This document shows positions 40,534 to 47,575 of a stretch of 64,000 bases of DNA, piece after piece. Under the pieces are notes generated by a model. That model saw only the letters and a list, made by a program, of their open reading frames with translations. It did no database searches and was not told where the DNA came from. This DNA comes from Methylophilus sp. QUAN (GTDB lineage Bacteria > Pseudomonadota > Gammaproteobacteria > Burkholderiales > Methylophilaceae). Numbering within the stretch: the stretch's first letter is position 1; each line of letters opens with the position of its first letter. The stretch lies in NCBI RefSeq assembly GCF_015354445.1, contig NZ_JADKYT010000001.1, positions 186,001 to 250,000 of the forward strand. The letters are read 5' to 3'. A program made the translations under genes and the position numbers.

Positions 40534-42993
40534 CTAGCCGAGATTATCCAGCTTGAAAGGATCTTGTGTCTGCGGGTCGATATCCAGCGGATTAATCTCG
40601 TAGGACAGGTCGTCGCCAATATCAATGTCGATCTCGTTTTGACCTTCCCAGCGCTCCAGCCAGATAGAAAAATCTTTTTCCGGCATAGGTTTGCCAATAA
40701 AGTAGCCCTGACCTTCGTTACATCCCAATCGGGCCAACTGGTTCAGCACAACTTCATTTTCTATGCCCTCTGCCACCACGATCAGGCCCATATTGTGCGC
40801 CAGGTCTATGGTCGACTTCACAATGCTGGCGTCGCTGCTATTTTTGTCCATAAACATGACAAATGAGCGGTCAATTTTAAGCTCTTGCACAGGCAACTGG
40901 CGCAAATAAGCCAGCGATGAGTAGCCAGTCCCAAAGTCATCAATCGACAGATGCAGCCCCATCGCAGCCAGTTTTTTCACTACCACCTCAGCACGTTCAG
41001 GGTCCTGCATCAAACTGCCTTCGGTGATTTCCAGCTTCAATGCTTTGGCATCCAGACCATGTGAGGACAATAAATGGCCAATCTGTTCTGGTAACTCCAT
41101 ATTATTGAGGTCACGCGTGGAGAGATTCACCGCCAGCGTGATGTGCAAACCCTGTTTTTTAAAGCCAGCCAAGACCTGGCAGGCACGCAACAGCATCCAG
41201 TTGGTGATATCACTAATCACCCCGGTTTGCTCGGCAAACGGAATAAACTGATCCGGGAAAATCATGCCTTTTTCAGGATGCACCCACCGGATAAGTGCCT
41301 CGCCGCCTAGCGCGCGGCGCGTTGCCACATCAATTTTTGGCTGGATATACAACAACAACTGATCATGCTGGATAGCTTCCTTCAAATCCGAAATCAGGGT
41401 CAAGGTTTCTGACTGGTCAATTTCCAGCGCTGTGTTATAAACAATCCAGGGCGATTTTTTGGCTCTGGATTCCTGCAAAGCCGTTTCCGCATGGTTCAGC
41501 AATGACTCTTCGTCCAGCCCATGATCCGGATACAAGGCAATACCGATGCCAGTACGCACATCTATCGCCTGGCCTTGCACGCTGACCGGCCGCTCAAACA
41601 CCTGCTGAATCTTGTCGGCATAACGCGTGGCCTTGGCCTGGTCTGTTTGCTGCAATAACACGGCAAATTCATCTGCATCCAGGCGCGCGACCATATCCTG
41701 CGCACCAAGGACATTTTGCTTTAACACCTGGCCGACATGGCGCAGCAAGTCATCGCCAAAATCACGTCCCAGCGTTTGATTAATGGGTTTGAATCGATGG
41801 ATATTGATCACAATGACGCTCAGCTTTTGCTGGCTGTCCGCATGTGTCATGATGGCCTGATGCACGCCCTGATTGAATGCCAGGCGGTTAGAAAGGCCGG
41901 TCAGTTCATCGTTAAACGCCAGGCGCTGAATGCGCAAGGAGCGTTGCAACACTGCTTCGCGCATGCTGTTAAGCGCTTTTGCCAGATGGCCAACTTCATC
42001 AGTACTATTGATCTGGATTTCTTTTTCGTAATCGCCCATGGCAATGGTATCGGCATCGTTGACCAAGGCAGCAATAGGCTCCGTCGTTTTACGCGACACA
42101 TACCAAATCAGCGCAGCAAAAATCAACACGCCAATAAACGTTAATAACACCATTACCTTGAACAGCGTGTTCAAATCCTGTGTGAAAGGCTCAACGGAGC
42201 CTTGCAACACCACCAGTAACGCATCATCTTTGGTTTCATGCAGCGAGCGGATTTTTAAATGATAGGCCTGGCCGTTGAGATCCACACTGTGTAATGACAG
42301 CTTCTGGCGATAAATATCGGCGACCGTTTTCACCAGTAAATTAGACAGTTCACGGGTGGAGGTGCTACTCACAAGTTGCCAGTCACGTTGATGTGTTTTC
42401 TGCACAAAGGTAACGTCGAGGTGTGTCAGTTGCTTGATCTGGTCGGCCAAGCGGCCATCCACGGCAAAACCCATGACAATCCAGCCGATGGTCTCTGGCG
42501 CTTTCACTGGCACCGTAATCAACTGGTACGGTTTGCCTGAAATAATATCGAACTTAAGCGTGCCACTTTGGTTTTCGAGCATCGCTTGCCGGGCATCTTC
42601 TTTGGCATTCGAGCCAAACAGTGCCTGCTCGTTATCCGTGGTGCCAATCACCAGATTGTCATTATTGCTGATGTAATAGGCAATCTGCGCGCGAATACGC
42701 CCCTGGTAACTCTCCAGCGCAGACTCAATGGTCTCGGCATCATTGGTTGCGACGGCTTCCCTAAAAGCAAAGTCAGCCGCCAGCACCTGTGTCGCCTGCT
42801 TCAGGCTTTGCGTGTTATGTTGCAACAAGCTCACAAATACGCGCTCACCGACATTGATCTGCTCTTCAGCCAGCGTATCGGCATGCTTACTCAGCGCATA
42901 TTTAAGCGGAAGCAGCCCGGCCAGCTGAATGGCAACCACCACTGTCAGAAATGTGAAAGCGATGCGCGAGCGGATATGTTTGAACTTGATCAT
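40534..42993 (-). CDS. Membrane sensor with HAMP, degenerate GGDEF and intact EAL domain
   Basis: The 819-residue protein has an N-terminal helix at about 10-30, a periplasmic double-Cache-like sensor region to about 270, a second helix at about 275-297, a HAMP domain (TTEPIAALVNDADTIAMGDY), a GGDEF domain and an EAL domain. In the GGDEF active site the two glycines are replaced: it reads RLDADEF (Asp441-Glu442-Phe443), so cyclase activity is doubtful. The EAL domain is complete, with Glu565 in EALIRW and NLS, EITE, DDFGTGYSS, K-I-D and VAEGIENE motifs, so c-di-GMP hydrolysis is likely. It is the last gene after the truncated-haemoglobin and cupredoxin genes (12-base gap), suggesting that it reads their redox or ligand state. 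Confidence 0.92.
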   Translation of the reverse strand: MIKFKHIRSRIAFTFLTVVVAIQLAGLLPLKYALSKHADTLAEEQINVGERVFVSLLQHNTQSLKQATQVLAADFAFREAVATNDAETIESALESYQGRIRAQIAYYISNNDNLVIGTTDNEQALFGSNAKEDARQAMLENQSGTLKFDIISGKPYQLITVPVKAPETIGWIVMGFAVDGRLADQIKQLTHLDVTFVQKTHQRDWQLVSSTSTRELSNLLVKTVADIYRQKLSLHSVDLNGQAYHLKIRSLHETKDDALLVVLQGSVEPFTQDLNTLFKVMVLLTFIGVLIFAALIWYVSRKTTEPIAALVNDADTIAMGDYEKEIQINSTDEVGHLAKALNSMREAVLQRSLRIQRLAFNDELTGLSNRLAFNQGVHQAIMTHADSQQKLSVIVINIHRFKPINQTLGRDFGDDLLRHVGQVLKQNVLGAQDMVARLDADEFAVLLQQTDQAKATRYADKIQQVFERPVSVQGQAIDVRTGIGIALYPDHGLDEESLLNHAETALQESRAKKSPWIVYNTALEIDQSETLTLISDLKEAIQHDQLLLYIQPKIDVATRRALGGEALIRWVHPEKGMIFPDQFIPFAEQTGVISDITNWMLLRACQVLAGFKKQGLHITLAVNLSTRDLNNMELPEQIGHLLSSHGLDAKALKLEITEGSLMQDPERAEVVVKKLAAMGLHLSIDDFGTGYSSLAYLRQLPVQELKIDRSFVMFMDKNSSDASIVKSTIDLAHNMGLIVVAEGIENEVVLNQLARLGCNEGQGYFIGKPMPEKDFSIWLERWEGQNEIDIDIGDDLSYEINPLDIDPQTQDPFKLDNLG

Positions 42994-43005
42994 GCAGTGT
43001 GATTG

Positions 43006-43593
43006 TTATGGGAGGGTGATCTTGACTTCGGTCGCACCCTCTATGGTTATCTTTTGTTCTACGCCAGGTTTGTTCTGGCCCGGTAGCCAGGCCTGGTAAC
43101 TGTACTGCCCGTCATTTAACTTGAGGACAGCTTTGCCTTTTTCATCCGTTTTGGCGAAAAATGGCGTATCCACGACATAGATGTACCCTACCATAGAATC
43201 GTGAATGTTGCACCCCAAGGTCACCACCCCCGCCTGCTCAAACGGTACCGGATTAGTGGGTACACCTGCATAGAGTTTCAATTCAAATTTCTTGGCAGGT
43301 GAAAAAGAATACACATGATGGCGGACGGTATCTTCATTGGGAAAATTAATGCTGGTCCCGGTTTGCACAATGGTCACTTTGGGATTGAACATCTTGTTTT
43401 TTTGCACGATCTTTCCAGCAGCATTCGGGTTGATAGCTGGCGTCTTGCCATCATAAAAAGCCACCACCGCATCGGTCACCGGCTTACCACCGGCATCGCT
43501 CACCAGCAGCGTGACCTCTGCCGCCAACGCCGATCGGCTCATGGCTATCAACAGCATTCCTGCACATCCCAGCCGAAACATCACGCGTAACAT
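43006..43593 (-). CDS. Periplasmic cupredoxin-like protein ('methylamine utilization protein' type)
   Basis: The 195-residue exported protein carries a type-1-copper-like site: His92/His93 in TVRHHVYSF, then Cys128, His131 and Met134 in TLGCNIHDSMVGYI. This pattern is plastocyanin-like, in the family often labelled MauL-like or 'methylamine utilization'. The signal peptide ends at about SALAA. Two ATG codons are close; the AAGGA ribosome binding site directly abuts the one at 43599, so the ATG at 43593 (MLRVMF) is preferred. A C-terminal carboxypeptidase-regulatory-like beta domain (GKAVLKLNDGQYSYQAWLPG) follows. It lies between the haemoglobin-like lipoprotein and the EAL gene. Electron transfer or copper sensing is plausible. 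Confidence 0.85.
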   Translation of the reverse strand: MLRVMFRLGCAGMLLIAMSRSALAAEVTLLVSDAGGKPVTDAVVAFYDGKTPAINPNAAGKIVQKNKMFNPKVTIVQTGTSINFPNEDTVRHHVYSFSPAKKFELKLYAGVPTNPVPFEQAGVVTLGCNIHDSMVGYIYVVDTPFFAKTDEKGKAVLKLNDGQYSYQAWLPGQNKPGVEQKITIEGATEVKITLP

Positions 43594-43615
43594 CCACATT
43601 CCTTATATCAGGTGA

Positions 43616-44035
43616 TTAATTGGTCACAACATCGCGCTTCATGGGCGCCAGGATCTTCAACAATTCGTTTTTTTCTTTAGTACCGACCCCGTTTATATCC
43701 AACCGTTCGCGCAACACCTCTACCATCAGCTCAAATTCGGCAGTGGTGATATGCAGGTCAGCATGGGAGTTCTTCATGGTTTCACCTTCGTAAACGCATT
43801 CACCACCGGTTTTCACACACAAAAAGTTGGTCAGGCTTTCTTTGAGTGCTTTCATTTTCACATCTTTAAACGAGCGGCTGGTGCGCGGGTCTTTACTGAC
43901 AATATCCAGCGTCTGGTTGGAGATTCTGCTCAACATGGGCAAGCCCCCAATGCGTTCAAACAAACTCGCCTCTGGTTTAGGTTGCGCGATACAACCGCAT
44001 AAAAACAAGGCAATTGCCAAAACATAAAAACGCAT
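43616..44035 (-). CDS. Lipoprotein with group I truncated haemoglobin-like domain
   Basis: The 139-residue protein has a lipoprotein signal (FLCGC) followed by a group I truncated-haemoglobin domain beginning LFERIGGLPMLSRIS. The probable proximal haem His lies in NSHADLHITTAEFELMV, which aligns with the family's HxxLxIT motif. Two extra Cys occur in FLCVKTGGECVYEG. Membrane-anchored periplasmic truncated globins are uncommon, since most are cytosolic. The ATG at 44035 is chosen because GGAG lies six bases before it, while the upstream ATG at 44047 has no ribosome binding site. It heads a leftward operon with the cupredoxin and EAL genes and is divergent from the DUF3034 gene. Confidence 0.83.
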   Translation of the reverse strand: MRFYVLAIALFLCGCIAQPKPEASLFERIGGLPMLSRISNQTLDIVSKDPRTSRSFKDVKMKALKESLTNFLCVKTGGECVYEGETMKNSHADLHITTAEFELMVEVLRERLDINGVGTKEKNELLKILAPMKRDVVTN

Positions 44036-44188
44036 TCCATTCTCCATTACTTGGGTCGACTATCGCATACTACGTGAGCTGACAGCGTTATTAAGCGTCA
44101 ATCAACCAGCGGAATGCGGCTTTTTTTGAGCAATTGTGCTTATCGTGAAAATGAAACAATGCGATAACTAAAGTACCCATATATTCTT

Positions 44189-45061
44189 ATGCGCCTATTT
44201 ACATCAAACTTGTCACGACTGATCACAATATTCGCCTTGACTGCACTCGCACTCCTTGCGCACGCCGGAGACCGCCTGTTAGCCACGGGCGGCGTCACCC
44301 AGATTGAAGGTGCTGCAGGCGGTGGCCTGATGCCATGGGCAGTGATCAGCGGCTACGGCACGGACAAGCAAATCGGTGGCTCACTGTTTTATACCCATGC
44401 CGAAACGCGGGGTGACTTCAAACTTGATACCACAGGCGTTTCGCTAGGCTTTTTCAATCGCGTCGAAGTCAGCGCCAGCCAGGCACGTTTTGGCCTGAGT
44501 GATACCGTGCCGGGGGAACAAATCCGTTTGAATACGCTAGGCATCAAACTGCGTGTATTGGGCGATGCTGTGTACGAGCAGGATAGCTGGCTACCTCAGG
44601 TATCTTTAGGTGCGCAGTATAAATATAACGAAGACTTTAACTTTGTGCCTAAAGCACTAGGGGCCAGTGATCGCAGCGGGGTGGATTATTATGTCGCTAC
44701 CAGCAAGTTATTTTTAGGCGCCATTAATGGCTATAACCTGTTGCTCAACGCCAACCTGCATGCCACCAAGGCTAACCAGTTTGGTATTTTGGGCTTTGGC
44801 GGTGACAGGCATGATCGCTACCGCATTCTGCCAGCCGTGTCCGCCGCGGTCATGCTGTCAGATAATTGGCTGATTGGTACAGAGTTTCGAGATAAGCCGA
44901 ATAATCTATCGGCTTATAAAGAAAACAGTGCCCACGATATTTTCATGACTTGGTTCCCGCACCGCAATGTGTCAATTACCGGCGCCTATATCGACCTTGG
45001 CCGCATTGCCAACAAAGACAATCAAACCGGCTGGTATCTCTCCGGCCAGATTAATTACTAA
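44189..45061 (+). CDS. DUF3034 family outer-membrane-like protein
   Basis: The 290-residue protein has a Sec signal peptide (ending about LLAHA) and then glycine- and aromatic-rich alternating segments that suggest a beta-barrel, with the last residues GWYLSGQINY. It matches DUF3034 by features such as LLATGGVTQIEGAAGGGLMPW, ISGYGT and the conserved IDLGRIANKDNQTGWYLS. The family's function is unknown. It diverges from the haemoglobin/cupredoxin/EAL operon across 150 bases. The ribosome binding site is weak. A strong terminator shared with pqqA lies about 25 bases after its stop. Confidence 0.83.
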   Translation: MRLFTSNLSRLITIFALTALALLAHAGDRLLATGGVTQIEGAAGGGLMPWAVISGYGTDKQIGGSLFYTHAETRGDFKLDTTGVSLGFFNRVEVSASQARFGLSDTVPGEQIRLNTLGIKLRVLGDAVYEQDSWLPQVSLGAQYKYNEDFNFVPKALGASDRSGVDYYVATSKLFLGAINGYNLLLNANLHATKANQFGILGFGGDRHDRYRILPAVSAAVMLSDNWLIGTEFRDKPNNLSAYKENSAHDIFMTWFPHRNVSITGAYIDLGRIANKDNQTGWYLSGQINY

Positions 45062-45126: not shown

Positions 45127-45198
45127 TTATTTGTTCATAACGTACATAGTTACTTCGAAGCCGAAACGCATTTCGGTAGCAGCTGGTTTAGTCCACAT
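45127..45198 (-). CDS. pqqA: Coenzyme PQQ precursor peptide PqqA (orphan copy)
   Basis: This 23-residue gene is too short for usual gene callers. The peptide opens MWTKPAATEMRFGFEVTMYV, with the Glu15-Val-Thr-Met-Tyr19 core whose Glu and Tyr side chains are cross-linked by PqqE to form pyrroloquinoline quinone, the cofactor of methanol and other dehydrogenases. AAGGAG lies seven bases before the ATG at 45198; an earlier in-frame ATG at 45204 is too close to that site. No pqqB, C, D or E gene is adjacent, so this is a stand-alone precursor copy. Some methylotrophs, such as Methylovorus, have several pqqA copies. It has its own terminator. Confidence 0.9.
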   Translation of the reverse strand: MWTKPAATEMRFGFEVTMYVMNK

Positions 45199-45337
45199 AG
45201 TCATTCTCCTTGATCTTAAATTCGTGTTAGCGATTGCTATCAACGTGTGACCATATTAAAACTGCCCGCCACAATTGTCGTGATTAAACTGCGCAACATG
45301 CATTCATGATTTTCATGAGTCTGGCCTGATGCCTGCT

Positions 45338-47575
45338 TTAAGCAAAGCGGGACTTGATATAGCGCAACAGCTTGCGCATGCCTTTGCGGCCGACGGTACG
45401 CTTGAGCCAGACTTTGGCATCATAGACATAAAACGGCCATAAAAACTTCCACTGCAGTCGGCGGCCAGTCATGCCGAGGTACATCTGCAGAAACTGCTTG
45501 CGGCCATCCCAATGCAACTTGTGCAAGGCCCGTGTCAAATCAGCCAGGCGTTGCTTGATCATAGTCGCGGTGGGCGTTGCGTGCAGGCGCGCCGTGTCAA
45601 TCAAGACAAAATTTAATTGCTCGCCCTGGCGCTGCACCAGGATATTGCCACCAGAAAAGTCGCGGAAATAAATACCCGAGTTGTGCATATGCAAACAAAA
45701 GCGGGCAAAGGCGTGATACAGGGTGTCGGCAGCAATGCCTTCAAACTGGCTATCACCGTTTCTAAACGCCAAAAAGGCTTTTGAAATCGCAAAGTCATGC
45801 GGCACAAACGCCGAAATATAAAAATTGTGGCGCAAGGTGGTGTCATTGGCATGCTCAATGTAGGCCAGCGGCATCGACGTGCCAACCCCACGACGCAGCA
45901 GCTCCATGGCCCCATTCCAGCTACGTTTAGCTTTGCTCGGCTTATGTTTGTCCAGCCAGGTTTTGTGCCAATACATGCGCACCGGTTTTTTAACGGTGAC
46001 CTGTTGCGTGGCATCGCGCGGATCGGGCAGTGACCAGATGGCGTTTCTCGCATGGCGCAAAGCGTTTTCCTTGGCTGGCGGCAGCAAGGTTTCTGGGTGC
46101 CAGGCCTGCCACAACTGTTGCGCCTGCTCAGCATTCGCCGCCAAAATCATGCCGCGCCAATCGCCCTCTTCAATCGGAAAATACTGCTGACCCGCGATAT
46201 GCGCGTGAATCACTGTACCACTCAACACAGGCCGTGGCGTGCGCAAGACAATCTGTTCAGCTTGTGGCCAAACCAGGTATAACGGCGACTCAGTGAGCAT
46301 TTGCTTACCCTGCGCCGGTTCACCATCGCGGTTAAATAGTTGCGCTTGCTGCAAACTGTGCGGTGAGTAAATCTGGTCCAATAAGGCGCATTGGCCGTTC
46401 ACAGTCCAAGCAATATGCACGGTCTGCCCATGCTGTTGCAGTCGGTGAATTTCAAGGCCATTGCCGGTGCTGACTGGCGCAATATACTGTGCGCCATTGA
46501 GCCAATGGCTGACCATTTTAAAGGCGGCAAAACTCGGGTTCTGCTGGTAATCAGCCACCACGCCATCGGCTGACTTGTAATAAGCCACGCGCTCCAGCGC
46601 TGGATAATCGGCATCTTTCAAGCCATCATCAATCAAGCCTTCGCGGTGACAGACAAATGCCCCCCAATTGGCATGCCGTAATGCCCCCGCCGCCGCGAGC
46701 AAAGTGAAATAACGCGTGACATAATCGGCCTGCTTCTGTGCGCCATCCGGAAAACGACGCTTGATACGGTAAATCGCCCAAAATGCCACAGGTGACACCA
46801 GCGTAGGCACGCCGAAATCCTCTCCGATTTTTTGCAGCAATTTGGCTTTTTTAATCAGGTTAAATTTGAGAATGCGCGTCCACTTGTGCTTGAGAATACG
46901 GAAATCTGCCAGCTCGGGCTCAACCACGCGCTCTACAAACAGATTATTGCTATGCACATCGGGCAAGCGGCGCTCTGCGCCCAAGGTCTTGAGCAGACTG
47001 ATGTTATAGACAGGCTCAAAGTCTTGGATATTCGGACCCACCACCACGACCCGATATTCTCTGGCCAGGTCGTAAGCAATTTGCCAGGCAACCATAAAGC
47101 CAGGCATATCATAACCAGCCCATTTTTTGCGATTGACCGTATTGCCTATCTCCAGTGCAGCAATACTTGCCGCATAACTTTGCAGCAGCTCGCTGATAAA
47201 CTGCTTCCAGCCCGCCTGCGCCTCGTTGCTACGCATATTTCTGGCCGCCTCATAAGGCTGTACGGCATGCAGCGTCACCGAAAATTCCGCTGCCAGTAAC
47301 CGGCGCAAAAAGCGCTCCTGAAATGGTCGAGCATCGTCATCGCTGATATCCAGGCGCACGCGCTTCACACCCAAGGCCTGCAATTGCGCAAGCACATAGT
47401 CATCGGTGGCCGGGTCAGCATTGCTCGCCACGCATAGACCGGTAAAATCCTCAGGAATCGTATGCGTGATCGCGGGCAAGTGACTGTTCTTGAGCCATAA
47501 ACCACCCGCGGCGATATATTTCAGGCCATCTATCATGACCTGGCGCGTGAGCATCGAAGGTTGTGTCTTCTTCAA
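45338..47575 (-). CDS. Glycosidase-like domain fused to lipopolysaccharide-kinase-like domain
   Basis: The 745-residue protein joins two unrelated parts. The N-terminal 400 residues look like a (beta/alpha)8 glycoside-hydrolase fold, with FTGLCVASNADPATDDYVLAQLQ, VKRVRLDIS and an Ala-x-x-EIGN-type segment (IAALEIGNTVNRKKWAG). The C-terminal 250 residues resemble the Kdo/WaaP kinase family, with the catalytic loop YFRDFSGGNILV (Asp639, Asn644) and the metal-binding Asp660 in LIDTARL. There is no signal peptide, so it acts in the cytosol. The start is a TTG at 47575; an ATG at 47554 is an alternative. It follows the LTA-synthase-type gene by eight bases. A role in surface polysaccharide synthesis is inferred. 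Confidence 0.75.
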   Translation of the reverse strand: MKKTQPSMLTRQVMIDGLKYIAAGGLWLKNSHLPAITHTIPEDFTGLCVASNADPATDDYVLAQLQALGVKRVRLDISDDDARPFQERFLRRLLAAEFSVTLHAVQPYEAARNMRSNEAQAGWKQFISELLQSYAASIAALEIGNTVNRKKWAGYDMPGFMVAWQIAYDLAREYRVVVVGPNIQDFEPVYNISLLKTLGAERRLPDVHSNNLFVERVVEPELADFRILKHKWTRILKFNLIKKAKLLQKIGEDFGVPTLVSPVAFWAIYRIKRRFPDGAQKQADYVTRYFTLLAAAGALRHANWGAFVCHREGLIDDGLKDADYPALERVAYYKSADGVVADYQQNPSFAAFKMVSHWLNGAQYIAPVSTGNGLEIHRLQQHGQTVHIAWTVNGQCALLDQIYSPHSLQQAQLFNRDGEPAQGKQMLTESPLYLVWPQAEQIVLRTPRPVLSGTVIHAHIAGQQYFPIEEGDWRGMILAANAEQAQQLWQAWHPETLLPPAKENALRHARNAIWSLPDPRDATQQVTVKKPVRMYWHKTWLDKHKPSKAKRSWNGAMELLRRGVGTSMPLAYIEHANDTTLRHNFYISAFVPHDFAISKAFLAFRNGDSQFEGIAADTLYHAFARFCLHMHNSGIYFRDFSGGNILVQRQGEQLNFVLIDTARLHATPTATMIKQRLADLTRALHKLHWDGRKQFLQMYLGMTGRRLQWKFLWPFYVYDAKVWLKRTVGRKGMRKLLRYIKSRFA

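Follow-up and report, generated by a model that had tools for sequence, protein, structure and literature searches.

The pqqA gene of the analyzed window (the whole 64,000-nucleotide stretch of the Methylophilus sp. QUAN genome considered here) likely belongs to a dispersed pqq regulon, in which a putative activator would jointly switch on scattered pqqA copies and the pqqBCDE genes, both the activator and the response being features that we infer from sequence patterns. The same dyad was found in front of the window gene, of other pqqA copies and of pqqB, with one copy of this genome carrying a weak variant.

The gene is located at positions 45127..45198 on the minus strand, has 23 codons (MWTKPAATEMRFGFEVTMYVMNK), and was identified by direct reading and by its match to the Pfam PqqA profile (PF08042; 42.4 bits, with a cut-off of 21.1). 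Its product contains the Glu-x-x-x-Tyr cross-link core in the form Glu15-Val-Thr-Met-Tyr19, and the initial annotation, which had called a true pqqA here without giving a strand, had the gene and its coordinates right. The good ribosome-binding site it reported is also present (AAGGAGA, 45205..45211, minus strand, 6 nt upstream of the ATG), as is a terminator belonging to the gene itself, formed by a 10-pair stem and a T-rich tail at 45109-45086 of the same strand. The terminator scan is weak by itself, because the shuffled region gives a mean of 0.9 such sites; the hairpin was seen in 16 out of 16 aligned orthologues. The alternatives of a chance ORF or of a decaying extra copy were ruled out on the basis of the PF08042 score, the existence of orthologues and the finding of synonymous changes only among the five copies of this genome.

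Upstream of the gene and on the same strand, a 5' leader (45199..45252) with a weak TAGC..GCTA hairpin, as stable as shuffled sequence (z about 0), is preceded by the -10-like hexamers TTTAAT/TAATAT (45253..45260), which were read directly and lie 51/53 nt from the centre of a putative pqq operator. The core of this operator, TCATGAAAATCATGA, was identified at 45304..45318 (minus strand) by motif scan and orthologue conservation, and reads as the dyad CATGA-AAA-TCATG; the complete motif of 22 columns spans 45300-45321. No sigma-70 consensus pair was detected between positions 44900 and 45500, around the gene. A riboswitch or stabilising hairpin in the 5' leader was also considered and is not claimed here: some of 30 leaders folded well, but the leader of the window copy behaved as its shuffles. 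Stable leader hairpins were observed in some pqqA copies (e.g., C2:562350 in G000 and C1:1890881 in G062), and their stems covary between copies by eye (GTACATC/GATGTAC, ACGCATC/GATGCGT), that of the window copy being weak.

The window pqqA occupies an intergenic stretch of 276 bp, bounded by a WaaP-like kinase gene (45338-47575), encoded on the same minus strand, and by a DUF3034 gene (44189-45061), encoded on the opposite strand and convergent with pqqA. This minus strand also carries the EAL/GGDEF and globin genes and those next to them (40534-44047), so that the previous description of the gene as lying opposite a copper/haem/EAL cluster was mistaken, only the intervening DUF3034 gene being opposite. 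No functional tie of the window pqqA to the neighbouring genes was found; each of six Methylophilus relatives of the neighbouring gene is followed by a pqqA encoding the same peptide (6/6).

The genome-wide search for pqqA and pqqBCDE proposed in the initial annotation covered the 3,154,887 bases (6 contigs) of this genome, and retrieved five pqqA genes and one pqqBCDE set, the absence of which had been named as counting against the annotation. All five pqqA genes scored above the cut-off in the profile search and code for the same 23 residues, with 1-7 synonymous and 0 non-synonymous base differences between pairs. The single pqqE above cut-off (507 bits, C2:642038) is on a different contig from the window copy, confirming that the latter is away from pqqBCDE. 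The pqqBCDE run starts at C2:639943, with pqqB, pqqC and pqqD preceding pqqE: PqqC and PqqD domains were detected beside pqqE, and a beta-lactamase-fold protein occupies the PqqB position. No pqqA was found next to pqqB, the nearest one being approximately 80 kb from pqqE. Since no pqqA heads pqqBCDE in this genome, the “orphan” copies are the sole precursor genes found. The description of the window gene as an orphan, extra copy thus stands insofar as it lies apart from pqqBCDE, but “extra” is misleading, because the pqqBCDE operon has no pqqA and all five copies are stand-alone. Based on the relatives that have one, we infer that an operonic pqqA was lost from this pqqBCDE.

These results also bear on the idea, put forward in the same annotation, that the peptide is only PqqA-like and has another job. 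Lanthanide handling would be one example, a role suggested as possible for the orphan pqqA of M. extorquens in the available passages of PMC11317620, according to which the expression of its orphan pqqA2/3 varies with the lanthanide source. In the genome analyzed here, however, all five copies encode one and the same sequence of 23 residues and there is no operonic pqqA, and because of this copies of exactly this peptide must feed PQQ, which makes a different job for the window peptide very improbable.

Regarding the arrangement of the copies, the pqqA genes at C2:72229 and C2:562294 (loci L008 and L007) have near-identical upstream and downstream flanks, and the unit they share is probably a recent duplication. 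Between the copies at C2:70449 and C2:72229, which are on opposite strands, lie a gene for an S24 peptidase (LexA/UmuD-like) and an ORF resembling a membrane protein; an impB/mucB/samB (UmuC-like) gene is located outside this interval. Opposite-strand pqqA pairs located ~1-4 kb apart recur in many genomes of the genus.

All 22 genomes of the genus, some of them incomplete assemblies, contained 3-10 pqqA matches and one pqqE each. Based on coordinate comparison, pqqBCDE lacked an operonic pqqA in 15/22 genomes, while a pqqA was found just upstream of pqqBCDE in 6/22 (G067, G070, G071, G077, G078 and G072, the last one with a run of N within the gene); G076, in which the contig ends there, was left out of the pqqB counts. 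Orthologues of the window copy, defined by at least 75% identity to its 130 bp upstream, were present in 16/22 genomes, including this one, with 0 amino-acid changes, and these 16 comprise all genomes of the genus except the six where a pqqA precedes pqqBCDE. At the family level, pqqA was present in 185/187 genomes. The passages of PMC4109929 available to us report 3-12 pqqA copies in Methylophilaceae, where the remaining pqq genes occur as a single set in all but one case, and describe this multiplicity as “noted before”.

In order to define the upstream motif, 131 of the 133 pqqA matches in the genus were recovered (the other two were a partial gene at a contig edge and a weak match of 27.9 bits without the core sought), and three with less than 200 bp of upstream sequence were excluded from the motif counts. 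The motif of 22 columns, CT[ACG][AC][TG][GT]AAAATCATGAG, with the symmetric form CTCATGA-AAA-TCATGAG, was trained on 83 non-redundant upstream regions that are representatives of the 128 pqqA scored. It reached a score of at least 10 in 121/128 upstream regions (a count that includes the training data), starting 109-184 bp upstream of the ATG (median 125). As controls, the same score was reached in 8 of 2560 mononucleotide-shuffled upstream regions and in 2 of 638 tiles of the 64-kb window, both of which corresponded to the two strands of the window pqqA promoter (tiles were non-overlapping and covered both strands, so a border-crossing site would be missed). An exact TCATGA was found within 200 bp upstream of 120/128 genes, and in the 7/128 promoters scoring below 10 there seems to be a degenerated form of the dyad in roughly the usual position. 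Moreover, relative to the operator centre, 71% of the 83 promoters had a -10-like hexamer at +53 and 28% had one at +54, the mean for offsets outside 50-57 being 1.4%. Operonic pqqA genes likewise have the operator in some form upstream, with scores of 14.5-15.3 for the four listed.

Among the 16 orthologues of the window copy, the operator core was invariant at 15/15 columns, while the 20 bases just upstream of it were invariant at 3/20 and the remaining upstream alignment at 36/105. This pattern is difficult to reconcile with plain dosage, according to which the copies would be redundant duplicates kept for amount only and the dyad would be leftover promoter sequence. The near-identical flanks of C2:72229 and C2:562294 and a pqqA copy number varying between 3 and 10 across the genus are in line with dosage, but an operator conserved beyond its own upstream flank, and found again in other genera, argues against it, and we consider this explanation quite improbable.

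The independent tests of the motif were provided by pqqB and by the family, the core pattern used in the genome of Methylophilus sp. QUAN having been written after its promoters were seen. After exclusion of locus L234, where the operon does hold a pqqA that includes a run of N, there were 15 pqqA-less pqqB promoters, whose regions were outside the training set. The motif was present in 15/15 of them (scores 18.5-24.6), together with a TATGAT hexamer at the -10 offset of the pqqA type. The sharing of this promoter by pqqB could partly reflect descent from an operonic pqqA promoter. Searches with an exact 15-mer yielded 34 sites in the genus, 29 of which were at pqqA or pqqB by coordinate comparison, and 0 for the reversed control. 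In the family, the symmetric 17-mer was found in 119/187 genomes and 23/24 genera (reversed control: 0 in 187), this strict form being absent from 68/187 genomes. Among the matches listed, 29 of the 30 family loci with the 17-mer had pqqA (23) or pqqB (6) downstream; pqqA was downstream in 22/22 of the listed loci outside the genus, and the eight listed inside it comprised one at pqqA, six at pqqB and one at neither. All ten pqqA promoters examined from eight other genera scored between 15.2 and 25.9, about four of them having no -10-like hexamer at the tested offsets.

In genus g2, which has small genomes (L024-L047), tandem pqqA genes were observed ~200 bp apart, coding for two peptides that end in CNK/CNR and MNK. 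The first copies scored 0.5-9.0 and the second ones -6.9 to 4.3, a recognisable weak dyad being restricted to the first copy. A strict site was present before a pqqA in five g2 genomes among the matches listed.

The separate control of precursor supply suggested previously holds in a physical sense, as the window copy has its own promoter-like region and terminator, but not with respect to the operator, which is common to most pqqA copies and to pqqB at nearly the same distance from the -10. A related explanation is that the copies, although encoding the same peptide, are condition-specific, each promoter having its own signal and the window copy serving particular conditions. The upstream regions of the pqqA copies do differ outside the operator and the -10, and the class to which the window copy belongs has been kept in 16 genomes. 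In addition, the available passages of PMC9851590 describe five pqqA copies whose expression differs widely, and cite Ge et al. 2015, the title of which states that multiple pqqA genes respond differently. The operator and its near-constant spacing, common to most copies and to pqqB, nevertheless make an individual signal for each promoter unlikely. The two explanations are not exclusive, as one activator acting on copies that differ in strength is possible; in the dispersed regulon proposed here, the pqqA copies sharing an activator could still vary in strength or in response, which is compatible with those passages of PMC9851590.

Within the genome of Methylophilus sp. QUAN, the core pattern with 0 mismatches was found at five places, corresponding to four of the five pqqA genes and pqqB. 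With one mismatch, ten places elsewhere were retrieved (1 in the reversed control), half of which (5/10) scored 16.0-18.1; these ten sites were not counted as regulon members, and the ORFs around five of them were inspected. At the fifth pqqA (C2:70449) the variant is weaker and comes with an extra half-site, and its score (12.9) is below those of five background sites, so that the motif alone does not separate this copy from background. A looser pattern of two half-sites matched 12 places in this genome (1 in the reversed control), of which 3 were at pqq genes. In the genus, 5 of the 34 exact sites, distributed in four genomes, were away from pqq genes, and no -10 hexamer at +53 was found at any of these five. 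Four of them adjoin what is apparently the same gene; in L135, the locus that was scanned, it encodes a glycine-zipper protein. At L135, L138, L139 and L146 (~position 1501), the exact operator was observed by this glycine-zipper gene (the domain being assigned in L135 only) and a pentapeptide-repeat or PhoX-like gene.

Genes of the PQQ-dehydrogenase type were searched in the same genome, resulting in seven matches, of which the loci of five genes were scanned (one gene was below the family cut-off). No motif scoring at least 9 was found in front of these five genes, and shared control with the methanol dehydrogenases was ruled out on this basis; the dyad thus appears to be a feature of the cofactor genes rather than of the methanol regulon as a whole. 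A TCATGA-N3-TCATGA dyad with a score of 17.9 was observed next to a hairpin at C3:399736-399750 (L114, L251), behind one of these five PQQ-dehydrogenase-type genes and before a gene for a solute-binding protein.

PqqE cross-links the Glu and Tyr residues of PqqA, and other Pqq proteins complete PQQ, so that PqqA is a substrate that is consumed, one whole peptide per PQQ. Several pqqA copies may be kept because of this consumption. In the proposed regulon, the window gene would supply the PQQ precursor peptide, and the five scattered pqqA genes would stand in for the one missing from the pqqBCDE operon. The putative activator would bind the dyad ~65 bp before the expected start and recruit the polymerase to a promoter that lacks the sigma-70 consensus pair, turning on precursor (pqqA) and enzyme (pqqBCDE) genes together. 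The dyad centre is placed 53 nt before the -10, and the window copy has no consensus pair; a dyad that lies around -65 ahead of a weak promoter might be the site of a LysR-type or NarL/FixJ-type activator. No candidate regulator for the dyad was found. More tentatively, the Methylophilaceae might have a dedicated regulator of PQQ synthesis, with PQQ or dehydrogenase demand as its possible signal, that recognises CTCATGA-N3-TCATGAG in front of most pqqA copies and of pqqBCDE, the number of operator-bearing pqqA genes setting the peptide:enzyme ratio and the operon being thereby freed from keeping a pqqA of its own, a proposal that we regard as possible rather than probable. PqqA availability is cited as rate-determining in Methylovorus MP688 in the available part of PMC11317620.

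The gene studied here belongs to the same peptide family as the pqqA of the canonical pqqABCDE operon, but it stands alone and the pqqBCDE of its genome has no pqqA. A close likeness is with the multicopy pqqA genes of Methylophilaceae (PMC4109929), which share family, gene, copy range and a single pqqBCDE set; unlike the present analysis, the passages available from that paper describe neither a missing operonic pqqA nor a shared upstream operator. The PQQ producer FJNU-6 also has five pqqA genes, three of which stand apart, but its pqqA1 is in pqqABCDE and its pqqA2 in a pqqADE operon, according to the part of PMC9851590 consulted, while no copy is beside pqqBCDE here. Methylovorus sp. MP688 likewise has five pqqA genes, and the orphan pqqA2 and pqqA3 of Methylorubrum extorquens AM1 are, as here, stand-alone genes in a methylotroph (both from passages of PMC11317620). 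The latter strain is an Alphaproteobacterium, unlike the one analyzed here, and the likeness is one of gene arrangement.

The pqqA gene and its multiplicity are therefore already known, and it is the anatomy of their control that was not found described: no description of a pqq operator was retrieved from the literature searched, which mostly leaves out subscription journals, nor did that literature offer an agreed reason why methylotrophs keep many pqqA genes. The window gene is ordinary for its family, its moderate interest being that of a starting point for studying how scattered pqqA copies are controlled. An operator concentrated at pqq genes makes the question of the many pqqA copies testable through its binding protein, and offers a sequence handle both for PQQ production strains and for finding the very short pqqA genes. 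For these methylotrophs, it points to a peptide-precursor pathway in which the genes for substrate and enzymes are scattered and yet apparently wired together.
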